NCBI GenBank assembly: GCA_024653205.1
Contig: JANLFO010000004.1
Location: 1 to 64,000, forward strand
Length of the DNA: 64,000 bases
Origin: Clostridia bacterium
GTDB lineage: Bacteria; Bacillota; DSM-521; Neomoorellales; SLTJ01
Direction: 5' to 3'
The position numbers were made by a program, and so were the translations under genes. The notes under the pieces were generated by a model. That model worked only from the letters and a program-made list of their open reading frames with translations, was not told where the DNA came from and made no database searches. Shown here piece by piece: positions 51,143 through 64,000 of the stretch; position 1 is the stretch's first letter, and each line of letters begins with the position of its first letter.

Positions 51143-52072
51143 GTGACGCTTCACCAATTCCTGGTCTTTCTCACCGTGGTGGACGAAGGTAGTTTCTCGA
51201 ATGCCGCCCGTAGGCTGAACATATCCCAGGCTGCTGTGAGCGCCCAAATCAAGGCCCTGGAGAAGGAATTGGGGCAGGTTCTGCTGGCAAGGAGGGCGGG
51301 GGTAGGTAAACCCAAGTTGACTCCGGCGGGAAGGCTGACCTACAAGGCGGCGGCCACAGTGGTCAGGGTAGTCGGTGGTCTGGCAACTCAGCTCAAGGGA
51401 CTGGAGACCGGAATAACGAAGGAACTGCCGGGAGAGCGGATTGCAGTGGCGGCCGATCCCTTGGTGGGGCTGTATCTCCTTCCTCGGCTGGGCGCGGAGT
51501 TCCGCCGTTGTCATCCGGGCGTAGAGGTGCGGGTGCTGACCGATACCGACCTGGAGGCCGTCTGGGGAGTCTTGCGCCGGGGAGGATGCGACCTGGGCGT
51601 GGTTCCCGCGGACCTTTCTACCCCTGGCTGTGCCGTGGAAGGCAGCCTTAGCCTAGAGCTTGTGGCCGTGGCCAACCCGCGGTTGGTGGGCTCCGAAGGG
51701 GTCCTTGATTGGTCGCGCCTGCCCATGGTGTTGCCGTCCCGGGGAACCGCGCTGCGACAGATACTGGACGCCTACTTGGCTTCGCTGGGCATAGAGCCCC
51801 GCCTGGTGGCCGAGGTAAGTCACCCCGAAGACGCACGCAAGGCGGTGAAAGGCCGCGCCGCGGCCACGGTAACGCATGCTGTAGTAGTGGAGGAGGAACT
51901 GGCGCTAGGGGGCCTGGTTAAAGTGGAGCCTCCCGCTCCTCTTCCTGCGTACGAATACAAAGTGGTACGCCCCCGCACCCGTTTTCGAGTGCCCGTCCAG
52001 GAGTTCTGCCGGTTTCTCCGTGAGCGTTTAGGGGGCCGGTCCCTGGGGAAGGGCCCCGATACGGAAGGCTGA
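51143..52072 (+). CDS. LysR-family transcriptional regulator 2
   Basis: A 309-residue regulator with winged helix at residues 1-62 (LVFLTVVDEGSFSNAARRLN, ISQAAVSAQIKALEKELGQV) and effector domain beyond 90. It resembles regulator 1 in N-terminus and effector-domain layout, so the two are probably diverged paralogues. GTG 51143 follows AAAGAGGTGG. It reads toward the mutase operon, whose operator begins 14 bases after its stop codon. Two LysR genes for one island suggests two inputs or heteromeric control. Confidence 0.9.
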   Translation: MTLHQFLVFLTVVDEGSFSNAARRLNISQAAVSAQIKALEKELGQVLLARRAGVGKPKLTPAGRLTYKAAATVVRVVGGLATQLKGLETGITKELPGERIAVAADPLVGLYLLPRLGAEFRRCHPGVEVRVLTDTDLEAVWGVLRRGGCDLGVVPADLSTPGCAVEGSLSLELVAVANPRLVGSEGVLDWSRLPMVLPSRGTALRQILDAYLASLGIEPRLVAEVSHPEDARKAVKGRAAATVTHAVVVEEELALGGLVKVEPPAPLPAYEYKVVRPRTRFRVPVQEFCRFLRERLGGRSLGKGPDTEG

Positions 52073-52235: not shown

Positions 52236-53708
52236 ATGGAAGTAAGGGTAAGGCAAAAGCGCATCGACGAAGATGAATTCTTGAAGATGCGGGAAAGTGT
52301 GCTCTCCTTGTGGCCTACCGGCAAGGAAGTGGACCTGGACGAGGCGGTGGAGTACCAGAAGTCCCTTCCGGACAGCAAGCGGTTTCACAAGGTGCTGGAG
52401 CGGCTGCGGGCGCAAGGAAAGACGGTGGTTTTCCCCCGGGCGGGCACGCCGCTGGTGGAAGACGAAATCGAGCTGGTTCAGGCCCTGGTGGCCTCCGGGG
52501 TGCCGCTCATACCTGTGACCACCGACAGCTACACCCGGAACCTGCAGTTTGAGAAAGTGGAGCAGGCCCTGGAAGAGAGCAAGAAGCGGGGCAAGCCCAT
52601 GCTCAACGGTTACCCCATTATTAACCACGGGGTTAAGACTACACGCAGGGTGGTAGGGGCTTGCGACGGCGCCTTCAATCCCCGCTGCTCCATGAAGGCA
52701 AACAGCCTGGTGGCGGAAATCGCCTTCGCCTCGGGCATGACCGCCATGCCCTCTAGCTTTTTCGCCTGGTTCGGCAGCTACGAGAAAAAGGCCACCATCG
52801 AGGAGTGTATCCAGACCGCTCAGTACGCCTTCCGCCTCATGGGCTATTACGCCGACCGGGGGGTAATCATCTCTACCGACTGCCACGGCTGGCTACCCAA
52901 CGGCGTTTTCCCCATAAGCGTGAACGCCGCCTGCCTGATAATCGAGGCCCTGGTGGCGGCGGAGCAGGGGGCAAAAAGCGTTATCCCCCTGGTGGAGTGT
53001 CACGGTTACCTGCCCCAGGACCTGGCCTGGATCCGGGCCGTGCCGCGACTGCTTAGAACCTATCTGGACCGGCTCGGGTACACTGAGGTAATGATCCCGG
53101 GCACCATCGCCTGCCAGGTGCCCTTGTACGCCGTGCCCCAGGACCTGGGCATGGCCTTCGGCTATCTCACCTACACGGCCCTGGTAGGCGCCCTGGCCAA
53201 AGTGGAAGCGGTTTCGGTGCGGACGGTGGACGAGGGGGTGGGCGTGCCCACCAAGGAGGCCCACGAGAGCAGCTACCGGGCGGCCAACTGGATATTCGAG
53301 GTGGTGCGGACCCAGAAGCTGGCCGATCTAGACGACGAGGACATCCGGCTGGAAGAAAAGATCACCGAGGCCGAGATCACCGCCATCCTGGACCGGGTGC
53401 TGGACCTGGGCGACGGGGACATAGTGGTGGGCGCGATAAAGGCGGTAGAGGCCGGGGTCTTAGACTCGCCCTTCCCGCTGAACGTGCATGCCAGGGACCG
53501 GGTGCTGGGCGTGCGAGACCTACGCGGCGCCTGCCGTTACGTGGAGTTCGGCAACCTGCCGATCCCGGAGGAGATCAAGGACTTTCACCGGCAGAAGGTG
53601 GCGGAAAGGGAGCGGGCGGAGGGTAGGAAGATGGACTTTTACGTAGCCGTAGAAGACTTCTGGGCCTTCAGCCAGGGAAGGATCCTCGGGGTACCGGCCC
53701 GCAAGTAG
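52236..53708 (+). CDS. Glutamate-mutase-like epsilon (catalytic) subunit with altered amino-group site
   Basis: A 490-residue TIM-barrel B12 mutase subunit. LWPTGKEVDLDEAVEY, PRAGTPLVEDEIEL, LNGYPIINHGVK and GVPTKEAHESS match methylaspartate mutase GlmE. Aligned by eye to my recollection of the Clostridium cochlearium sequence, the arginines that clamp both substrate carboxylates are kept (R68, R101, R150 for R66, R100, R149), but E171, which contacts the amino group, is P172, and Y177 is W178; Y181 is Y182. So a dicarboxylate other than glutamate is likely. ATG 52236 follows CAGGGAGGA; the longer frame from 52143 overlaps the operator. Partners mutS and mutL follow. Confidence 0.85.
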   Translation: MEVRVRQKRIDEDEFLKMRESVLSLWPTGKEVDLDEAVEYQKSLPDSKRFHKVLERLRAQGKTVVFPRAGTPLVEDEIELVQALVASGVPLIPVTTDSYTRNLQFEKVEQALEESKKRGKPMLNGYPIINHGVKTTRRVVGACDGAFNPRCSMKANSLVAEIAFASGMTAMPSSFFAWFGSYEKKATIEECIQTAQYAFRLMGYYADRGVIISTDCHGWLPNGVFPISVNAACLIIEALVAAEQGAKSVIPLVECHGYLPQDLAWIRAVPRLLRTYLDRLGYTEVMIPGTIACQVPLYAVPQDLGMAFGYLTYTALVGALAKVEAVSVRTVDEGVGVPTKEAHESSYRAANWIFEVVRTQKLADLDDEDIRLEEKITEAEITAILDRVLDLGDGDIVVGAIKAVEAGVLDSPFPLNVHARDRVLGVRDLRGACRYVEFGNLPIPEEIKDFHRQKVAERERAEGRKMDFYVAVEDFWAFSQGRILGVPARK

Positions 53709-53735: not shown

Positions 53736-54161
53736 GTGAAAGATCGGCCCACGGTAGTGACCGGCACGGTAGGAGTAGACGCCCACGTAATCGGAACCAA
53801 GATCCTCTCCCGCGCTCTTAGGGAGGCCGGGTTCAACGTGGTGGAACTGGGGGCCCAGACTCCGCCGGAGGAGTTCATCAAGGCCGCCCAGGAGACGGAC
53901 GCCGACGCCATCCTGATGAGTTCCCTGTACGGCATGGCCGAACTCGACCTCCAGGGTTTTAAGGAGAAGTGCATAGAGGCGGGGCTGGAGGATGTGATTC
54001 TCTACATCGGCGGCATCCTGGGGATTTCCCGGCACGACTTCAAGGAAGACGAAGAAAAGTTCAAAAAGCTGGGCTTCGACCGGGTTTACCCGCCGGACGT
54101 GGACATCCAGGCGGCCATAGAAGACCTGCGCCGGGATCTCAAGGCCAGGGGCAAGCTTTAA
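53736..54161 (+). CDS. Glutamate-mutase-like sigma subunit (B12-binding)
   Basis: A 141-residue cobalamin-binding Rossmann protein. The base-off/His-on motif D15-A-H17-V-I-G20, SSLYG (62-66) and the GG near residue 92 that contacts the nucleotide tail are all present, as is the DRVYPP segment shared with GlmS. It supplies adenosylcobalamin to the 52236 protein at their interface. GTG 53736 follows GGGGAGGTG, 27 bases after the catalytic subunit. Overall it looks closer to genuine GlmS than the catalytic subunit does to GlmE. Confidence 0.9.
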   Translation: MKDRPTVVTGTVGVDAHVIGTKILSRALREAGFNVVELGAQTPPEEFIKAAQETDADAILMSSLYGMAELDLQGFKEKCIEAGLEDVILYIGGILGISRHDFKEDEEKFKKLGFDRVYPPDVDIQAAIEDLRRDLKARGKL

Positions 54162-54174
54162 AGGGGAGCCCGGT

Positions 54175-55545
54175 ATGGGCGAAGTTCGGGTATTCATCGA
54201 CTTCGGCAGCACCTTCACCAAGGTAGTGGTCTTTGACCTGAGCAAAGAAGAGCTGCTGGCGCGGGTTCAGGTTCCCTCTACCGTGGACCGGGACATCACC
54301 ATCGGGCTGGAGGAGGCCTGGAGACTGGTCCGCGCCGAGGTGGGCCTGGGCGAAGAAGAGCTAAGGCAGGCCGTGGCCTGCAGCAGCGCCGCCGGAGGCC
54401 TGCGGGTGGCCTGCGTGGGTCTGGTCCCGGAATACACCACCGAGGCCGCCCGCCTGGCCGCCCTGGGCGCCGGAGCGAAGATCGTGGGCGTGTACTCCTA
54501 CGAGCTTTCGGAGGCGGAAGCGGCGGAGGTGGAGGAGCTGGTTCCGGACATCGTCCTCCTGACCGGGGGCACGGACGGCGGCAACCGGAAGGTCATCCTG
54601 CACAACGCCCGCCTCCTGGCCCGGACAGGCGACCGGATAAAGAATATCGTGGTGGCGGGCAACAAGGCGGCCCACGACGAGGTCAGGCAGATCCTCGGCG
54701 GGGCGGGAAAAAACGTCATTCTCACCCGCAACGTGATGCCGGAATTCGGCCGGCTGGAGGTAGAGCCCTGTAACCGCACCATCCGGGAACTCTTCTTAAG
54801 CCGCATTACCGAGGCCAAGGGTATAGCCCGGGTGCGAAGCCTGATCCGGGGCGTGGTCATGCCCACCCCGGCGGCGGTGCTGGAGGCGGCCCGGCTTCTG
54901 GCGGAGGGCGCGGGCGACTGCCCCGGCCTGGGGGAACTGCTGGTAGTGGATGTGGGCGGCGCCACCACCGACGTCTACTCTGTGGCCAGGGGGCTGCCCA
55001 CCAACCCGGCGGTGGTTACCGTGGGTCTGGCCGAGCCCTACGTCAAGCGCACCGTAGAAGGCGACCTCGGAATGGTGCATAATCTCGAAACCTTAAGGGA
55101 AATCGTGGGCGCGGGGGAAGAGCCGGAGGGCTTTGCCGAGGCTCTCGGCGATCTGGCGGCCCGGAGCGGCATTCCCCGGACGGAGAGAGAGGTAGAGACT
55201 CAGATAATGCTGGCCCGCGCCGCGGTAAAGACGGCGGTGGACCGCCACGCTGGCCGGCTGGAGGCGCGGGTTTCGCCTCAGGGCGAGTTTCTGCTGCAGC
55301 GGGGCAAGGACCTAACCGGGGTGGGCTGGGTGGTGGGCACCGGCGGTCCGGTGGCCTTCTCGGCGGCACCCCGGCGGGTGCTGGAAGGGGCGCTCTTCCG
55401 GCCGGAGGAGCCCATGCTGCTCAAGCCCAAGGCCCCCCGGTTCTTGGTGGACCACCACTATATAATGTTCGCCCTGGGGTTGCTGGCTCAGGCCGAACCG
55501 CTCAAGGCGGCGCGGCTGATGCGAAAGTACCTGGTGCCGATATAG
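54175..55545 (+). CDS. MutL/GlmL-like ASKHA ATPase, mutase chaperone
   Basis: A 456-residue protein of the MutL family found between the S and E genes of glutamate mutase operons. ASKHA motifs are present: FIDFGSTFTKVVVFD (7-21), LLTGGTDGGNRKVI (about 127) and VVDVGGATTDVYSVA (about 258). The family probably repairs or reloads inactive mutase, by analogy with reactivases; no direct proof is known to me. It starts 13 bases after the sigma subunit. Gene order here is E-S-L, not the usual S-L-E. Confidence 0.9.
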   Translation: MGEVRVFIDFGSTFTKVVVFDLSKEELLARVQVPSTVDRDITIGLEEAWRLVRAEVGLGEEELRQAVACSSAAGGLRVACVGLVPEYTTEAARLAALGAGAKIVGVYSYELSEAEAAEVEELVPDIVLLTGGTDGGNRKVILHNARLLARTGDRIKNIVVAGNKAAHDEVRQILGGAGKNVILTRNVMPEFGRLEVEPCNRTIRELFLSRITEAKGIARVRSLIRGVVMPTPAAVLEAARLLAEGAGDCPGLGELLVVDVGGATTDVYSVARGLPTNPAVVTVGLAEPYVKRTVEGDLGMVHNLETLREIVGAGEEPEGFAEALGDLAARSGIPRTEREVETQIMLARAAVKTAVDRHAGRLEARVSPQGEFLLQRGKDLTGVGWVVGTGGPVAFSAAPRRVLEGALFRPEEPMLLKPKAPRFLVDHHYIMFALGLLAQAEPLKAARLMRKYLVPI

Positions 55546-55592: not shown

Positions 55593-57764
55593 ATGGGCTT
55601 CTACGTAGGAGTGGACGTAGGCGGGACCTTCACCGACGGCGTGGCCCTGGATGATGCCGGAAGGCTCTACCACGCCAAGTCTCCTACCACCCGGGAGGAC
55701 CCAGTGGCGGGCATGCTCAACACTCTGGCGGTACTGGCCGCCGAGTGCGGCCTGAGCCGCGAGGAGTTTCTAGCCTCAACCGTTCGGCTCAGCCTGGGCA
55801 CCACCATCGGCACCAACCTCATCGTGGAGCGCAAGGGCGCCCGCACCGGGCTCCTGGCTACCGCCGGTCATGGCGACGCCATCCTTATGATGCGGGGCTC
55901 GGGCCGCACGGTGGGGCTGGAGCCGGAAATGTACTTTCACCCCCAGACCACGGACAAGCCGGAGCCGCTGGTACCGCGTAACCTCATCCGGGAGATCAAC
56001 GAGCGCATCGACTACGCCGGCCGGGTAATAGTGCCTCTGAACCCGGAGGAAGTAGAGGCGGCGGTGCGGAGCCTGGTCGAAGAGGGCGGAGTAACCGCCA
56101 TCGCCATCGCTTTCCTATGGTCCTTCAAGAACCCGGTACACGAGCGGCAGGCGGCGGAAATCGTCCGCCGCGTAGCCCCGCAGGTGTACGTGTCCTGCTC
56201 GCACGAGGTGGCACCGCGGCTGGGCGAGTACGAGCGCACGGTGGCCACGGTCATCAATTCCTACATTGACCCGCCCTCGGCCGCCTACCTGGCCGGCGCT
56301 GCCGAGCGCCTGAAACAAGCCGGCCTGAAATCCCCGCCGCTGGTGATGCAGGTTTCGGGCGGGGTGGTGCCGGCAGAGGCGGCGGCCTCGGTTCCCCTTA
56401 CCTCCTTGGGATCGGGTCCGGTGGGCGGCCTAATGGGGGCGGCGGCCCTGGCGCGGCGGCTGGGCCACGACTACGTGGTGGCCACCGACATGGGCGGCAC
56501 CTCCTTCGACGTGGGCCTGATCGTCCAGGGCGAGCCGCTGGGCACCGAGGACAACGTAATCAACCGGTACCGCTACCGCTTGGCCCAGTTGCAGGTGACC
56601 TCTATTGCCTGCGGGGGCGGAAGCATAGCCCGGGTGGACCCTTACAGCCGTTCCCTGCGCGTGGGGCCGGAGAGTGCGGGCTCCAACCCCGGGCCGGTCT
56701 GCTACGGCCGGGGCGGGAGCGAGCCCACGGTCACCGACGCCGACCTGGTGGTGGGCCTGCTCTCGGCGGAGAGCTTCCTGGGAGGGCGCATGCCCTTGGA
56801 CAAGGATGCCGCCGTGCGGGCCCTGGCCGCCCTGGGCCGGCAGGTGGGACTGGAGCCGGAAGAAGCTGCCGCCGGCATCCTGCGGATAAACAACACCAAG
56901 GCGGCGGAGCTGATCCGGCAGCGGACCGTGGTTCGCGGTTACGATCCCCGCGACTTTGTAGTCTACGCCTATGGGGGTGCAGGTCCGCTGCACGCCTTCG
57001 CCTTCGCGCCGGAACTGGGGGTTAAGGAGGTAGTGATCCCCCTGGGCAACGGCGCCTCTACCCTTTCCGCCTACGGGTGCGCCACCTCGGACCTGGTGCG
57101 GGTGCTGGAGGCCGAGGAGCTGTTCTCCCATCCCTTTGACCTAGACGGGCTGAACCGGGTCTTGAGCCGCCTGGAGGCCGAGGCCCTGGCGGCCATGGCC
57201 CAAATAGGCCAGGACCCCGGGGGGGTGGAACTGGAGCGCTTCGGCCTGATGCGCTACCGGGGCCAGTGGCTGCACCACTTACTGATACACCTGCCCGGGG
57301 GATACCTGGGGCCCGACGAGGCGGACAAAGTGGTGGAAGACTTTCGCACCACCTACGACCGCCTTTACGGAAAGGGCGCGGGCCTGGTTTCCCAGGGTAT
57401 AGAAATGTTTACCGTCCGGGTGCGGGCCCGGGCGCGACTGGGCCGTCCGCTGCTGGCGGGTCGGGAGGAGACGGAGGCCGGAATACCGGAGCAGGCCCGG
57501 CGGGAATCGCGGCCGGTGCTTTGGCCGGAGAGCCTGACCTGGTTGGAAACCCAGGTGTATGACGGCAGGCTTCTCCAACCCGGTAACGAGGTGCCCGGAC
57601 CGGCGGTAGTGGAACTCCCCCATACTTCGGTTCCGGTAGCGGCCGGTCAGAAGCTGATATGCGACTCGCTGGGCAATTTGGTGTTGCGGTTGGAGGCAGA
57701 TACTATCGGCGAAGACTTCGGTATCCGCAACGAGAAGGCTGCCGGATTGGCGGGGGAGGCATAG
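55593..57764 (+). CDS. HyuA/AcxA-like subunit of an ATP-dependent carboxylase or hydantoinase
   Basis: A 723-residue ASKHA-fold protein of the hydantoinase A / acetone carboxylase beta family: VDVGGTFTDGVALDD (8-22), SLGTTIGTNLIVERKGA, TDMGGTSFDVGLI (about 303) and GGGSIARVD. It should phosphorylate the substrate or bicarbonate for the partner at 57768, three bases downstream. HyuA/HyuB pairs include 5-oxoprolinase, N-methylhydantoinase, caprolactamase and acetone/acetophenone carboxylases; the zinc ribbon on the partner favours the carboxylases. ATG 55593 lies 47 bases after the mutL-like gene. Confidence 0.88.
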   Translation: MGFYVGVDVGGTFTDGVALDDAGRLYHAKSPTTREDPVAGMLNTLAVLAAECGLSREEFLASTVRLSLGTTIGTNLIVERKGARTGLLATAGHGDAILMMRGSGRTVGLEPEMYFHPQTTDKPEPLVPRNLIREINERIDYAGRVIVPLNPEEVEAAVRSLVEEGGVTAIAIAFLWSFKNPVHERQAAEIVRRVAPQVYVSCSHEVAPRLGEYERTVATVINSYIDPPSAAYLAGAAERLKQAGLKSPPLVMQVSGGVVPAEAAASVPLTSLGSGPVGGLMGAAALARRLGHDYVVATDMGGTSFDVGLIVQGEPLGTEDNVINRYRYRLAQLQVTSIACGGGSIARVDPYSRSLRVGPESAGSNPGPVCYGRGGSEPTVTDADLVVGLLSAESFLGGRMPLDKDAAVRALAALGRQVGLEPEEAAAGILRINNTKAAELIRQRTVVRGYDPRDFVVYAYGGAGPLHAFAFAPELGVKEVVIPLGNGASTLSAYGCATSDLVRVLEAEELFSHPFDLDGLNRVLSRLEAEALAAMAQIGQDPGGVELERFGLMRYRGQWLHHLLIHLPGGYLGPDEADKVVEDFRTTYDRLYGKGAGLVSQGIEMFTVRVRARARLGRPLLAGREETEAGIPEQARRESRPVLWPESLTWLETQVYDGRLLQPGNEVPGPAVVELPHTSVPVAAGQKLICDSLGNLVLRLEADTIGEDFGIRNEKAAGLAGEA

Positions 57765-57767
57765 GGT

Positions 57768-60074
57768 ATGGGCGAGAACCCGGCTATCGTATGGGACGGA
57801 AAGGCCCGCGGCTATCTGCCGCCGGAAACCCTGCGCATTAGTCCTAGCCTGCGCCTGCACACCTCCGGGGCGCAGGAGGTGGACCCCATCACCTACGAAG
57901 TAATTCGCAACACCCTAATGGGTATTAACTTTGAGCATGGCAATACCATCCAGAAGCTAAGCATTTCTCCTATTACCATGATCACTCGCGATTTTCAATG
58001 CACTCTACTAACCGAAAGCGGGGAAGTGCTCTGCCTGGGCCCCTATCTCCTCTACCTGGGCGTAACCTTGAGCTTCGGGACCCGGTGGATACTGGAGAAC
58101 CGGAGCGCCGAACCGGGCATCGAGGAAGGCGACGTCTTTCTCTGGAACGACCCCTACGTGGGGACGGCCCACCAGCAGGACACGGCTCTGGCCGGGCCGG
58201 TGTTCTGGGAGGGAGAACTCTTCTGCTGGGTGGCTAATTGCCTCCATCTCACCGACGTGGGCGGCGCGGTCTCGGGCAGCTTCTGCGTGGGAGCCAAGAA
58301 CTTTTGGGAAGATCCACCCAGCTTCCCTCCGGTGAAGTTGGTGGAGCGGGGGAAGCTGCGGGTGGACGTGGAGGACGCCTTCGTGCGCCAGTCCCGGCTC
58401 CCCAACGCGGTGCGGATGGACCTGCACGCCGCCCTGGCGGGAATTAATGTCGCCCGGGAGCGGGTGCTCCAACTGGTGCGGCGCTACGGGGCCGCCACGG
58501 TAAAAGGGGTGATGTACCGGCTCCTGGAGGCCGCAGAACGGGCCTTCCTGGAAAAGTTGCGGCATATTCCCGACGGGAGGTGGTCGGAACGGGTATATAC
58601 CGAGGCGGCACTACCCGGCGACGAGCGGGTTTACGTGAGCCAAGTCAACATTACCAAGCAAGGCGACTACCTGGTGGCGGATAACGAGGGGACCTCGCCG
58701 CAAATAGGCTCGATCAACAACACCCTGGCCGGCTTTGCCGGCGCCGTGCTCCTGGCCCTTACCCTGATGTTAGGTTATGACCTGGGCGGCGCTTGCGGGG
58801 GTCTCTACCGGCGGGTAAAGTTCCGGCCGGTGCCGGGTACCATTACCTGCGCCGACTTCCCGGCGGCGGTAAGTCCTGCCGGCCAGTACAACATGCCCAT
58901 GGTGGCCTCTACCGCCGTGGGAGCGGTGGCCAAGATGGTGGCCTGCGCCGACGATCCCGAGCTGAGGGCCAAAGCCCTTACCATGGTGGACGTCCACGCC
59001 GTGGGCGGAATCATCTTTAACGGAACCGACCGGCGCGGGGACTACTTCGTGGCCATGAACCCGCTGCTGGCCATTGGCGCCTTCCCGGCTTCGCCGGCTC
59101 GGGACGGGATAGACACGGGAGGAAACTACCTGGTACCCGGGATGGAGGCGGCCAACGTGGAGGAGAACGAGCTGGCCTGGCCGGTGCTCACCCTATACCG
59201 CCGTCAGAGCCCGGCCGGCGCCGCGGGCGCGGGCCGCTTCCGGGGCGGCCTGGGAGTGGAAGAGGCCATAGTGTTGCACGGGACGGAAGCGGTGGAAATG
59301 GCCATCTATATGAACGAGAGCTTCGCCAAAGGTCAGGGCCTCCTGGGCGGCAACCCCAGCGGCCGGGGTTTCTTCCGGGTGAAGCGCAACAGCAACGTTT
59401 GGGAGCTGCTGGCCGACGGGCGAGTGTCGCGCAGTCTGGGGGAAATTCAAGGGGAGGAGGTGCCAATCAGCTTCAAGGGACCGGCCATTATTCTGCGCCC
59501 CGGCGACGTCTGGAGCAACAACTTCCCCAACACCCCGGGCGTGGGCGATCCCCTGGACCGGGACCCGTATCGGGTGGCCCGGGACGTGGCGGAGGGGAAG
59601 TTAACACCCGAAGAGGCCAGGGGGGTCTACGGGGTGGTGATGGCCTCACCCTCCGAGCCCGACCTGGAAGCTACCGCCTCCTACCGGGAGGAAGCTCGCA
59701 GGAGGCGGGTGGATGGCGCGGGCAACGAGGAGAAGGGAGGTGGTCAAACGGCGCAACCGGGAACCGGGTACGCAGTGGCCGGCGGCCTCCTTAGGCTTGA
59801 GGACGGCCCGGCGGGCCCCGTCTACCGCTGCCGGTGCGGCCGTATCCTGGGACCGGCCAAGGCGAACTACAAGGATTACTGTCGGGTGAACGAGATTCCC
59901 GCTTCCGACATCGGTCCGGCATACGCCTCCTCGGACCCGGGAGCGGGCACGGCGATGCGCTTCAGGGAGTTCTTCTGTCCGAGTTGCGGAACCCGTTTGG
60001 CCACAGAGCTGGCGCGGGCTGGGGACCCGTACCTTTGGGATATCGCTCTTGACTGTTCCAATTTCGCCGATTAG
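57768..60074 (+). CDS. HyuB/AcxB-like subunit fused to an acetone-carboxylase-gamma-like zinc ribbon
   Basis: A 768-residue protein. Residues 1-640 are a hydantoinase B / acetone carboxylase alpha domain (DPITYEVIRNTLMGINFEHG, LWNDPYVGTAHQQD, FRGGLGVEEAI). A Gly/Glu-rich linker (about 641-668) leads to a C-terminal 100-residue domain with C688, C690, C705, C737 and C740 in a CxC...CPxCG ribbon, like the small zinc subunit (AcxC) of acetone and acetophenone carboxylases. The linker DNA holds GGGAGGTGG (59735-59743) and, four bases later in frame, ACG 59748, which looks like the lost start of a once separate gene. ATP-dependent carboxylation is the favoured role; hydantoinase activity is not excluded. 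Confidence 0.82.
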   Translation: MGENPAIVWDGKARGYLPPETLRISPSLRLHTSGAQEVDPITYEVIRNTLMGINFEHGNTIQKLSISPITMITRDFQCTLLTESGEVLCLGPYLLYLGVTLSFGTRWILENRSAEPGIEEGDVFLWNDPYVGTAHQQDTALAGPVFWEGELFCWVANCLHLTDVGGAVSGSFCVGAKNFWEDPPSFPPVKLVERGKLRVDVEDAFVRQSRLPNAVRMDLHAALAGINVARERVLQLVRRYGAATVKGVMYRLLEAAERAFLEKLRHIPDGRWSERVYTEAALPGDERVYVSQVNITKQGDYLVADNEGTSPQIGSINNTLAGFAGAVLLALTLMLGYDLGGACGGLYRRVKFRPVPGTITCADFPAAVSPAGQYNMPMVASTAVGAVAKMVACADDPELRAKALTMVDVHAVGGIIFNGTDRRGDYFVAMNPLLAIGAFPASPARDGIDTGGNYLVPGMEAANVEENELAWPVLTLYRRQSPAGAAGAGRFRGGLGVEEAIVLHGTEAVEMAIYMNESFAKGQGLLGGNPSGRGFFRVKRNSNVWELLADGRVSRSLGEIQGEEVPISFKGPAIILRPGDVWSNNFPNTPGVGDPLDRDPYRVARDVAEGKLTPEEARGVYGVVMASPSEPDLEATASYREEARRRRVDGAGNEEKGGGQTAQPGTGYAVAGGLLRLEDGPAGPVYRCRCGRILGPAKANYKDYCRVNEIPASDIGPAYASSDPGAGTAMRFREFFCPSCGTRLATELARAGDPYLWDIALDCSNFAD

Positions 60075-60118
60075 GGAAATCCGGTAGCACCTAAACGCCT
60101 GGAGAGGAGGACTTGAGC

Positions 60119-61210
60119 ATGAAAGGTCATCGCCAACTATCTGGGGTAATCCTGGCCGGGGTGCTGGCTGCCTGTGTCGGCCTGTGGAGCTGCGGCAAGG
60201 CGCCCAGCTCTCCCCAGGGAACCTCCGGCTCCCAGCAGCCCACGGAAACCAAACCCATCGAGCTAAAGATGGTAATGTTTGCCCCGGATAAGCCGCCGGG
60301 GAACACCTGGTCGCGGCAGTTTGCCCAACGGGTCGAGGAGTTGTCTAACGGTCGGCTTAAGATCAACCTGATCGGCGGCCCGGAAGCCATCCCCGCCGAC
60401 GAGGCCCCGGCGGCGGTCCAGCGGGGCGTGGTGGATATGGCCGAGGCTCTGGGCTACGCGCTTAACAAGTTGGTCCCGGGATTTGACTCCGTGCATATGG
60501 CCGAGTACACTCCTGCGGAGCTACGGGAGCGGGGGCTGACCGCCTACCTGCAGGAGCAGTTCGCCGCTCAGGGGCTTTACTACCTGGGAGTATGTAAGCC
60601 GGCCGAGCCCCATGTAGTAAACATCTTTGGCTTCCGCAAACCGGTAACCAAGCTGGCGGACTTCAAGGGGCTGAAGATCGCCACCGACGGAGCGGCGGCG
60701 GCGGCCTTCGTCAAGGAATTGGGGGCCACGCCCGTGGCCATACCTCTTACGGAGTACTTCACCGCTATGGAGCGGGGCACCATAGACGGGTATACGTGCG
60801 GGATTCCGCCGGTCATAGATTTTGGTCTGGGGCCGGTCACCAAGTTCATATTGGAGGAGTCCATCTTTTCTTCCGGAGGCATGGTCTACGTAGTGAACCT
60901 CAATACTTGGAACAAACTTCCTGCGGATCTACAAGAGGTGCTGACCCAGGCGTCGATCGAGCACGAAAAGAACACCAAGCTTTGGGATGATATAGTCGCC
61001 CAAGCCAAGGCCGAGCTGGTCAAGCAGGGAGTTCAGTTCGGTAAACTTCCGCCGGACGAGGCCTTGGCTTATTACGAGGCCTTCCGCAAGACCATAATGG
61101 AGCAGGACTACCAGATCGGCAAGCGAGAGATCGTATCCAAGATCCACGAGCTCATTCTCAACCCCGATTTCTACCGGCTGAAACTCGACTACTACCAGAA
61201 GAGACAGTAA
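60119..61210 (+). CDS. TRAP transporter solute-binding lipoprotein (DctP family)
   Basis: A 363-residue extracytoplasmic receptor with a lipobox LWSC (C25). The DctP fold shows in FAQRVEELSNGRLKINLIGG, DFKGLKIATDG and EYFTAMERGTIDGY. In most family members the GLKIR arginine pairs with the substrate carboxylate; here the position is A188 (KIAT), so ligand recognition probably differs. ATG 60119 follows GGAGAGGAGG at ideal spacing; TTG 60113 is rejected. It lies 44 bases after the carboxylase gene. Confidence 0.9.
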   Translation: MKGHRQLSGVILAGVLAACVGLWSCGKAPSSPQGTSGSQQPTETKPIELKMVMFAPDKPPGNTWSRQFAQRVEELSNGRLKINLIGGPEAIPADEAPAAVQRGVVDMAEALGYALNKLVPGFDSVHMAEYTPAELRERGLTAYLQEQFAAQGLYYLGVCKPAEPHVVNIFGFRKPVTKLADFKGLKIATDGAAAAAFVKELGATPVAIPLTEYFTAMERGTIDGYTCGIPPVIDFGLGPVTKFILEESIFSSGGMVYVVNLNTWNKLPADLQEVLTQASIEHEKNTKLWDDIVAQAKAELVKQGVQFGKLPPDEALAYYEAFRKTIMEQDYQIGKREIVSKIHELILNPDFYRLKLDYYQKRQ

Positions 61211-61349: not shown

Positions 61350-61883
61350 TTGGAGCCTCGGCAGCGCTTTTGGGTTGCGTTCGAGCGACTGGTAGACGCT
61401 TTCCTGGGGCTGGCGGCTCTGCTGGTGCTGTTCGATGCCCTGGCAGTTTCTGCCGACGTCCTGGTGCGCTACGGCGCCGACAAGAGCTGGGCAGGACTGT
61501 TTGAAATCACCGAGTACAGCCTGGTATGGATGACCTTCCTGGGGCTGGCCTGGGTAATGAGGCAGGACGGCCACGTGAGCATGGAGCTCCTGGTCCGCCG
61601 GTTAAATCCCCGGCCCCAGGCTGGTCTACGTACCTTTAGCCTCGTGGTGGGGGCAGCGGTGCTGGCGGTGGCGAGCTGGCTGAGCCTACTGGTAGTAGTC
61701 CAGGATTTCCGGGCGGCCACGCCCATGGTGAGCATTCTGCGGCCGCTCCGGTGGCCGATAGAGGCGGTAATTCCTGCCGGCCTGGTGCTGCTATTGGTGG
61801 AAACGCTGAGGAAACTGTACGGTCACCTGCGGGCGCAAGGAAACAACCCGCCCGAAGGAGAAGCCGCGACCGGGGGGCGCTAA
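61350..61883 (+). CDS. TRAP transporter small membrane subunit (DctQ family)
   Basis: A 177-residue protein with four membrane helices (about 16-40, 50-72, 92-115, 135-155). EYSLVWMTFLGLAWVMRQDGHVSME (overlapping runs, about 52-76) is the DctQ hallmark. It forms the membrane complex with DctM and docks the receptor. TTG 61350 follows GGGGAGGAGAGG. The next gene starts four bases after its stop. Confidence 0.9.
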   Translation: MEPRQRFWVAFERLVDAFLGLAALLVLFDALAVSADVLVRYGADKSWAGLFEITEYSLVWMTFLGLAWVMRQDGHVSMELLVRRLNPRPQAGLRTFSLVVGAAVLAVASWLSLLVVVQDFRAATPMVSILRPLRWPIEAVIPAGLVLLLVETLRKLYGHLRAQGNNPPEGEAATGGR

Positions 61884-61887
61884 AGCC

Positions 61888-63204
61888 GTGGATTGGCTGT
61901 TCGTTCTGGTATTCAGCTTCGTCTGCCTTTTCCTATGCATGTTAACCGGCATGCCCATAGCCCTGAGCTTCCTGCTCACCTGCATGATCGGCGGCTACCT
62001 GTGGTGGGGCGGGCTTAGCGGCCTTGCTCAACTGGCCACCGGGCTTTATAGCCCCGTAGCCAGCTTCACCCTGCTGCCGGTGCCCATGTTCATTCTCATG
62101 GGCGCGCTGATCTTCGAATCCGGGATGGGTACCCGGGTGGTTGACGTCCTGGACCGCCTGTTGGGCAAGCGGGTTCCGGTACGGTTGAGCGTACTGGCGG
62201 TAGGAGCCGGGGCGATACTAGGGGCCCTGATCGGGATCAGCGGCGCCTCGGCCAGTATACTGGGCAAGACCCTGCTGCCGGAGATGCTCAGGCGCGGTTA
62301 CCGGGGAGAAACGAGCCTCGGGCCCATAGTGGCCAGCGGCACTCTGGCCACCATGATACCTCCTTCGGCCCTGGGCATCCTGGTGGGGGCCATGAGCGGG
62401 GTCTCCATCAGCGGGGTCCTGCTGGGAATTATTCTTCCCGGTCTACTCCTGGCCGGCCTCTATCTGGCCTACCTCTTGGTGCGGTACCGGAAAGCGCCGG
62501 TATCCGCGCCTGACGAGCGATCGGACGTTTCCTTTTCCGAGAAGGTGGTAGTGTTCGTGCGCGACCTTCTCCCCCTGGCGCTCATCATGTTCGCGGTGGT
62601 GGGAACCATCTTCATCGGCGTCGCTACTCCCTCGGAGGCGGCGGCCCTAGGGGTGGTGGCCTGCCTATTACTGGCGGCAGCCTACAGGCGCCTTAACTGG
62701 AAGGTTCTGTGGAACTCCCTGGTGAGCACCGTACACATCACCAGCATGGTCTTCTTCATCGTGGTAGGAGCGGTATGTTTCAGCCGGATCCTGGCCAGCA
62801 GCGGGGCGCTTCGCGGTTTGGTAGATCTGGCCACCTCGCTCAGCCTTCCTCCCATGTTGATCGTGGCCGCCACCCTGGCGGTAGTGTTCATTTTGGGCTG
62901 CTTCATGGACGCGGCCAGCATTACCATGGTGACCGTGCCGCTGTTCACGCCCCTGGTTTCGGCCCTAGGCGTGGACCTGCTGTGGTATGCGGTGGTTTAC
63001 TTGCTGGTGGTGCAGCTCGGGCTCATAACCCCGCCCTTCGGTCTGGACGTCTACACGGTTAAGGCGGTGGCCCCGCCGGAGGTCACGCTTACCGAAGCCT
63101 TTCGGGCCGCCATGTCCTTCCTGGTGGTGGGTCTGGTGGTGGCGGCCTTGCTGTTCGCCTTTCCCAGGCTGGCCCTGCTCTTGCCGGCGATGGCGAAGGC
63201 GTAG
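61888..63204 (+). CDS. TRAP transporter large membrane subunit (DctM family)
   Basis: A 438-residue protein with about twelve hydrophobic segments; GALIFESGMGTRVVDVLDRL, ISGASASILGKTLLPEMLRRGY, SGTLATMIPPSALGILVGAM and ITPPFGLDVYTVKAVAP are DctM signatures that build the sodium-coupled elevator. GTG 61888. It ends the operon that begins at 52236; the next operator begins 14 bases after its stop codon. Confidence 0.93.
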   Translation: MDWLFVLVFSFVCLFLCMLTGMPIALSFLLTCMIGGYLWWGGLSGLAQLATGLYSPVASFTLLPVPMFILMGALIFESGMGTRVVDVLDRLLGKRVPVRLSVLAVGAGAILGALIGISGASASILGKTLLPEMLRRGYRGETSLGPIVASGTLATMIPPSALGILVGAMSGVSISGVLLGIILPGLLLAGLYLAYLLVRYRKAPVSAPDERSDVSFSEKVVVFVRDLLPLALIMFAVVGTIFIGVATPSEAAALGVVACLLLAAAYRRLNWKVLWNSLVSTVHITSMVFFIVVGAVCFSRILASSGALRGLVDLATSLSLPPMLIVAATLAVVFILGCFMDAASITMVTVPLFTPLVSALGVDLLWYAVVYLLVVQLGLITPPFGLDVYTVKAVAPPEVTLTEAFRAAMSFLVVGLVVAALLFAFPRLALLLPAMAKA

Positions 63205-63320: not shown

Positions 63321-63369
63321 TCGCTACAGTAAGTTTGTGGTACTACCGCGAGGGGAGGTAATGGGCGAG

Positions 63370-64000
63370 ATGACAGCGGTAGCGCTAGATACTGCGGCCA
63401 GAGGGAACGTTACAGGTACGCCCCAAGTTAACGGGGAAGAAATCAGAAGACTAAGCGTCGTCACGAACCGGGTCAAGAAGCTCAAGCAGGAGTGGGAAGA
63501 GGCCAGGCCCATCATTTACGTGGACGATACCCTGCTCTTTACCAAGTCTTGGAAGGAGACGGAGGGGCTCCCGGTCGACCTGCGCTGGGCTAAGGCCTTC
63601 GAGAAGAGGCTCAAAGAGTGCCCCATTACCATCCGGGATGGAGAGTTGATCGTGGGCTCGCTCACCAAGTTCGTTAAGGGAGTAAACCTCCTGGCGGCCA
63701 TGAAGCCGCGCGAGGTCCTCGACATGCTTAACCGGGGACTGTTTGACCGCAAGCTCAGCGACACCGTCCCGGCGGAGATCTCGGAGGAGGACGCCCGGCG
63801 GCTCAGGGAAGATTGCGAGTACTGGGTGGCCAACATGCCCCCCAGCTACATCAACGCCGCTCTGAAGGAAACCCTGGGCGAGGATCACTTTGACCTCTTG
63901 ATGGACCGGGCCATGATTTTTGAGGGCCGGGGGGTAAGGGTGGAGCCGGACCGGGGCCTGTTCGAGAACTGGGGCGCCATGGGCGGAGGCACCCCCCAGC
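63370..64000 (+). CDS. Glycyl-radical enzyme (pyruvate formate-lyase-like), N-terminal part, cut by the window
   Basis: About 210 residues of an open frame running off the end. The N-terminus fits the diol-dehydratase/decarboxylase/X-succinate synthase class: RRLSVVTNRVKKLKQEWEEA, FTKSWKETEGLPVDLRWAKA, ITIRDGELIVGSLTKFVKG, YWVANMPPSYINAALKE. The usual ERAxLxTE block reads VDDTLLFTKSW, a divergence from common subfamilies. The catalytic Cys-loop and C-terminal glycyl loop lie outside the window, so the reaction cannot be assigned. ATG 63370 is best spaced from GAGGGGAGG; ATG 63361 is in frame. Its operator ties it to the mutase operon. Confidence 0.88.
   Translation, partial: MTAVALDTAARGNVTGTPQVNGEEIRRLSVVTNRVKKLKQEWEEARPIIYVDDTLLFTKSWKETEGLPVDLRWAKAFEKRLKECPITIRDGELIVGSLTKFVKGVNLLAAMKPREVLDMLNRGLFDRKLSDTVPAEISEEDARRLREDCEYWVANMPPSYINAALKETLGEDHFDLLMDRAMIFEGRGVRVEPDRGLFENWGAMGGGTPQ

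Follow-up and report, generated by a model that had tools for sequence, protein, structure and literature searches.

Glutamate mutase is the textbook example of one protein fold for one reaction. Its product, 3-methylaspartate, is the substrate from which methylaspartase, the next enzyme of the pathway, takes off ammonia; glutamate mutase itself also turns over 2-hydroxyglutarate, slowly. According to a 2022 crystallographic study, the catalytic subunit GlmE holds its ligands with an arginine claw formed by R66, R149 and R100, while a partial hydrogen bond links E171 with the glycyl amine and acrylate is held by R100 together with Y177, which hydrogen-bonds it (PMC10947579). Because E171 contacts the amine and Y177 the acrylate, only the loss of E171 concerns the amino group, and loss of Y177 affects the surroundings of the other carboxylate.

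Here we compare with this system a locus in a window of 64,000 nucleotides from a Clostridia bacterium. A gene at 52236..53708 (+ strand) encodes a GlmE-like catalytic subunit of 490 amino acids (E; protein 52236-53705), with its ATG at 52236 closely preceded by a good ribosome site. In Pfam the protein hits PF06368 (467 bits) and no other family, the MM_CoA_mutase domain not being its best match, and it aligns by phmmer with the solved GlmE of Clostridium cochlearium (6h9e/1cb7) at E = 4e-100 and 36-39% identity. A structure was predicted from seven alignment rows (mean pLDDT 63) and served fold recognition only, the active-site segments 62-75, 94-105, 124-151 and 167-183 having pLDDT under 50. 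Foldseek placed this model closest to 1cb7_B (E 9.9e-25), methylmalonyl-CoA mutase structures reaching just about 1e-4 against 1e-24 for GlmE. Together with its S subunit and the accessory protein GlmL, E would constitute an adenosylcobalamin-dependent carbon-skeleton mutase whose claw grips both carboxylates of a short dicarboxylate and which does not bind an amino group at C2, a reading to which we assign a probability of about 0.74.

The phmmer alignment with GlmE is gapless from R149 through Y181. It pairs R68, R101 and R150 (codons 52437..52439, 52536..52538 and 52683..52685, + strand) with R66, R100 and R149, and Y182 with Y181; P172 (52749..52751, +) takes the place of E171 and W178 (52767..52769, +) that of Y177, two assignments also seen in the alignment of its close relatives. 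The initial annotation had proposed the same three arginines, which the alignment identifies unambiguously, and had placed P172 and W178 by eye, a pairing that is now confirmed. The span from which it read the pocket, 52656-52790, covers residues 141-185 and holds R150, P172 and W178, but R68 and R101 lie upstream of it. Its statement that E171 touches the substrate amino group agrees with the glycyl amine contact in the crystallographic study; Y177, which it had counted among the amino-group contacts, is ruled out as such by the same study, where this tyrosine hydrogen-bonds acrylate with R100 (PMC10947579).

Scanning GTDB contigs revealed six relatives of E (52-72% identity) in two Actinomycetota, a Peptococcaceae bacterium, a Desulfotomaculum, an unclassified Bacillota bacterium and a Dehalococcoidia bacterium. 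A search of 398 genomes of the phylum found a further member in just one genome (G090), which carries both a canonical copy (L043) and a paralogue 70% identical to the window E; 296 genomes in the phylum of G399 contained no additional member. The Dehalococcoidia protein is divergent, with G at 171 and H at 177, and was set aside. The remaining relatives and the window E make up seven proteins, found in Bacillota and Actinomycetota and 61-81% identical to one another, which have proline and tryptophan at positions 171 and 177 of GlmE (P/W) in common, along with R66, R100, R149, Y181 and E330. All seven thus keep the claw and lack the residues that contact the amine and the acrylate, and the conservation of P172 and W178 among homologues with similar gene company, suggested earlier as a check, is borne out. 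E171 and Y177 were present in 29 of 29 canonical GlmE proteins in our first alignment. The branch leading to the P/W proteins is long (1.43 changes per site) and has 100/100 support; the seven sequences are one clade and do not represent independent origins. This clade is rare.

Reading P172 and W178 as isolated specificity swaps is ruled out by the extent of change around them: out of 162 columns invariant among canonical enzymes, 70 are kept in the clade, including the claw arginines, and 60 are completely changed. Pocket changes in GlmE numbering comprise H150 to C, S or T, E171 to P, Y177 to W, E214 to D, F216 to H and P218 to W; H291 was left out of the signature since its column moves between alignments (A/G in one, Q in the other). 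The changed positions include strand ends that we take to face the active site in the GlmE fold. The P/W pair therefore marks a whole pocket remodelled around a retained claw.

In such a pocket an amino group could be held instead by a different polar residue, such as the invariant H217 or D215, and the clade would then consist of divergent glutamate mutases still interconverting glutamate and 3-methylaspartate. The fold, claw, S subunit and GlmL are all the same in both, and the clade straddles the equivalog cut-off of TIGR01503 (390.1 bits): the window E falls below it with 379 bits, the other members score 387-403 bits and five of the seven pass by a few bits. A canonical GlmE, however, reaches about 800 bits (796), and genome content also argues against this reading. 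In a census of 398 genomes of one phylum, GlmE-like sequences were found in 77 genomes (E <= 1e-60) and methylaspartase in 72. When the full glutamate-mutase signature was read as R-R-R-H-E-Y-Y-H-E, 69 of 69 full-signature mutases occurred in methylaspartase-positive genomes, and E171, lost in the P/W clade, is invariant in all 69 of these methylaspartase-linked copies. Most sequences that deviate at 171 or 177 come from genomes lacking methylaspartase, with two exceptions: G111, and G090, which retains the canonical copy and has the P/W copy as a second paralogue alongside it. The window genome (G000, 98.8% complete) gave no methylaspartase match, not even a weak one, and the enzyme is missing from the other P/W genomes without a canonical mutase (G398, G399, G400, G401 and G403), searches of G398-G403 returning at most matches at the level of the enolase superfamily (E >= 7e-7). 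Some of these genomes are incomplete bins in which a single absence counts little; absence from six of six P/W-only genomes counts more. The presence or absence of methylaspartase in a genome thus separates the E171/Y177 state from the P/W state, and with neighbouring genes foreign to glutamate fermentation (see below), a divergent glutamate mutase seems unlikely.

Seven other departures, not of the P/W type, are GlmE genes without an adjoining S or GlmL gene (L087-L093, in genomes G038, G111, G116, G081, G080, G033 and G075). In the loci read, most of them lie between genes for glutamate racemase (MurI, profile-checked in L087 only) and RNase PH. Six of the seven keep E171 and have A, S or T in place of Y177; the protein of G081 has V171 and keeps Y177. 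By this comparison E171 tends to stay where a neighbour acts on glutamate, which fits its role as the amino contact. Several of these loci also have neighbours resembling 2-hydroxyglutaryl-CoA dehydratase.

Another GlmE-like gene of the window genome, P0002, comes with an S subunit of its own (L005:7270-9221, contig C25) and lies next to a LysR gene and to genes for two URO-D family proteins, two TRAP systems and a short-chain dehydrogenase (SDR). Here the R66 site is not arginine, E171 is replaced by A and Y177 by D, yet the protein scores 3 bits above the TIGR01503 cut-off. The SDR of this cluster is 58% identical to that of the P/W clusters, and G398 encodes a URO-D family protein (L085:1524-2909), 45% identical to one on C25, in the same gene set as the AOR and SDR genes of its P/W module, which connects both window-genome clusters. 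In Chloroflexota, other GlmE-like proteins (L059, L061, L062 and L064) have unusual residues at 149, 171 and 177, and they suggest that the fold may support more reactions.

The genes around E in the window all run in the same direction (+ strand). Upstream lies a LysR-type regulator recognised by profile (51143..52072). Downstream follow a GlmS-like B12-binding subunit S (53736..54161; NF002612 199 bits, cut-off 110) and a GlmL/MutL accessory protein (54175..55545; NF040745 534 bits, above the cut-off of 475). The cobalamin-binding motifs DxHxxG, SxL and GG are intact in S, reading DAHVIG, SSLYG and GG in the window and in its relatives. That many canonical-invariant residues are gone from E could mean that the subunit is degenerate and has lost catalysis; with 70 of the 162 invariant columns, the claw and E330 retained over two phyla, and S and GlmL intact and syntenic, we regard this as highly improbable.

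After GlmL come a HyuA-type subunit of the acetone/acetophenone carboxylase and hydantoinase superfamily (55593..57764; PF05378, PF01968, PF19278) and a HyuB-type subunit fused to an acetone-carboxylase gamma-like zinc domain (57768..60074; PF02538, PF08882), whose best PDB match is the delta subunit of acetophenone carboxylase. The pair thus contains hydantoinase A and B and acetone-carboxylase gamma domains (PF01968, PF02538 and PF08882), with scores far under every NCBIfam equivalog cut-off. A TRAP transporter is encoded next, as DctP (60113..61210; NF037995), DctQ (61350..61883; PF04290) and DctM (61888..63204; PF06808), followed by the start of a glycyl radical enzyme gene (63337..64000; PF02901/PF01228) that continues past the window (L004:138-2744). 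Beyond it the order is MmgE/PrpD, alcohol dehydrogenase, AOR, alcohol dehydrogenase, glycyl radical activase, AOR, cupin and an XDH-type subunit. The nearest relatives of the MmgE/PrpD protein are cis-aconitate-decarboxylase-like proteins and iminodisuccinate epimerase, its second-best PDB relative group, whereas methylcitrate dehydratase is more distant. About 16 kb past the window end, genes that look like CRISPR Cmr/RAMP genes begin (from L004:16472-19801; judged by look).

A similar set recurs in the other P/W genomes. In G090 the order is glycyl radical enzyme, activase, E, S, PrpD, HyuA, HyuB, gamma protein, SDR, TRAP, AOR, MoaD-like protein and CoA ligase; the Bacillota bin G403 has glycyl radical enzyme, activase, E and GlmL, with HyuB on a different contig. 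In the Actinomycetota bins the module is divided among contigs. In G398 one contig carries the glycyl radical enzyme and its activase with S and GlmL, while E is found on a second one beside PrpD, SDR and AOR; in G399 the contig of the glycyl radical enzyme also holds GlmL with a cupin, a flavoenzyme and an AOR, E lying on a separate contig with PrpD, HyuB and AOR. PrpD is near E in six of the seven genomes and HyuB was found in five. The P/W clade therefore travels with a glycyl radical enzyme, MmgE/PrpD, HyuA/HyuB, SDR, AOR and transporters; no glutamate-fermentation genes occur in its neighbourhood, and its neighbours are unrelated to that process. We found no description of this cluster in open papers. 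Cupin, SnoaL-like, two-domain OYE/BaiCD-like flavoenzyme and AOR genes also adjoin mutase genes in two Actinomycetota bins and one Dehalococcoidia bin (L079:6064-12000, L081:1-6685 and L040:1-5868), the two Actinomycetota having an SDR gene as well.

An amino-free dicarboxylate, as the initial annotation had suggested, is thus supported along three lines that we counted as independent: E171 is lost and R66/R100/R149 are kept throughout the clade; methylaspartase is absent from the P/W-only genomes, with G090 holding both mutases; and the neighbourhood is without glutamate-fermentation genes. The P/W enzyme probably rearranges a diacid without an amino group, though databases call it glutamate (methylaspartate) mutase.

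Orthologues of the glycyl radical enzyme (63-75% identity) are present in all seven P/W genomes and in only 3 of the 398 genomes of the phylum, and a search of 22 genomes of the class matched the window genome alone. In two of the seven P/W genomes the gene and its activase adjoin E. The protein has a PFL-like domain and the glycyl radical motif RVGGYSA, and it scores under every NCBIfam equivalog cut-off. The CXE motif, a conserved feature of glycyl radical eliminases (PMC8473560), is absent from all seven orthologues, which have GC-L-[AG]-[YH] (GCLAY or GCLGY) in its place, GCLA in the window gene. The product of L004:138-2744 may possibly represent a new class of glycyl radical enzyme.

Absence of the eliminase-defining CXE glutamate (PMC8473560), the occurrence of this enzyme in seven of seven P/W genomes, adjoining E with its activase in two, and the epimerase relatives of PrpD would all be consistent with a CoA-free pathway resembling alkylsuccinate degradation, in which the glycyl radical enzyme adds its substrate to fumarate, MmgE/PrpD acts as an epimerase and the mutase rearranges the resulting substituted succinate. 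This sequence of steps is nevertheless improbable: the enzyme scores 271-290 bits with BSS/MasD, far under the eliminases (up to 411 bits), and small BSS-type subunits were not recognised nearby. Moreover, a plain alkylsuccinate yields no stabilised migrating radical. The broader proposal of a new B12 rearrangement acting on a free (non-CoA) substituted succinate or glutarate made by a new CXE-less glycyl radical enzyme is doubtful, if somewhat less so.

By homology with glutamate mutase, the P/W enzyme would use radical chemistry. Binding of the substrate would set off homolysis of the Co-C bond in S, the substrate would lose a hydrogen to the resulting 5'-deoxyadenosyl radical, a carboxylate-bearing group of two carbons would migrate within the claw by the route of glutamate mutase, and the hydrogen would be given back to the rearranged product. 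The mutase would act within a catabolic cluster containing the CXE-less glycyl radical enzyme, MmgE/PrpD, an acetone-carboxylase-like enzyme, SDR and AOR. As for the substrate, glutarate/methylsuccinate is chemically the least favourable of the proposed pairs, as nothing would stabilise the carboxymethyl radical that migrates; a hydroxyl, oxo or methylene group at C2 is therefore more plausible.

Tentatively, the substrate may be a C5 dicarboxylate whose C2 carries an oxygen function, the mutase interconverting 2-hydroxyglutarate and 3-methylmalate. MmgE/PrpD would then dehydrate 3-methylmalate, standing in for methylaspartase, as one candidate among several; its cis-aconitate-decarboxylase-like and iminodisuccinate epimerase relatives weaken this guess about dehydration. 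Rearrangement of 2-methyleneglutarate to 3-methylitaconate, which would make E a convergent counterpart of the nicotinate-pathway enzyme of Eubacterium barkeri, is a rather doubtful possibility. This compound is the closest amine-free isostere of glutamate (=CH2 for NH2), P172, W178 and F175/F176 render the amino side more hydrophobic, and XDH-type molybdenum subunits occur downstream in the window genome and, as read from sequence, near the G090 cluster; however, no enamidase or other nicotinate-pathway gene was recognised by reading through the genes near the cluster.

These comparisons suggest that the GlmE fold serves as a scaffold for dicarboxylate mutases in general and supports one or more reactions not yet known. 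PF06368 and TIGR01503 pass the name of glutamate mutase to all relatives and, because five of seven members pass the TIGR01503 cut-off, most of the clade is automatically named methylaspartate mutase, a common annotation that is probably wrong. E, S, GlmL, the glycyl radical enzyme, PrpD and HyuA/HyuB provide a short gene list for a possible new anaerobic pathway. If the proposal of a new CXE-less glycyl radical enzyme supplying the mutase is true, two radical enzymes in series would form a new anaerobic degradation pathway common to Bacillota and Actinomycetota.

Among known systems, the 2-methyleneglutarate mutase of nicotinate fermentation in E. barkeri acts on an amino-free C5 dicarboxylate, as the window E would, a likeness by analogy only. 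That enzyme belongs to the methylmalonyl-CoA mutase superfamily, from which the window E differs in matching PF06368 only. The glycyl radical eliminases (glycerol dehydratase, HypD, IslA and CutC) share the PFL-like domain and RVGGYSA with the window enzyme, but they have the CXE that it and its orthologues (7/7) lack. HyuA/HyuB share the hydantoinase A, B and gamma domains of acetone and acetophenone carboxylases (AcxABC, ApcA-D) and differ from them in falling far under the equivalog cut-offs and in being genetically tied to a B12 mutase. Glutamate mutase GlmES (EC 5.4.99.1; 1CCW/1CB7/1I9C/6H9E) shares with the window enzyme its fold, length, claw, Y181 and E330, a separate B12 subunit with DxHxxG and the accessory protein GlmL; the clade differs from it by E171 to P, Y177 to W, H150 to C/S/T, E214 to D, F216 to H and P218 to W, and the window enzyme stands in a different operon of a genome without methylaspartase. 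Thus, the window E appears to work like glutamate mutase on the same fold, yet it should not be filed as glutamate mutase, because two pocket features and the pathway partner are missing and its score stays below the equivalog cut-off.
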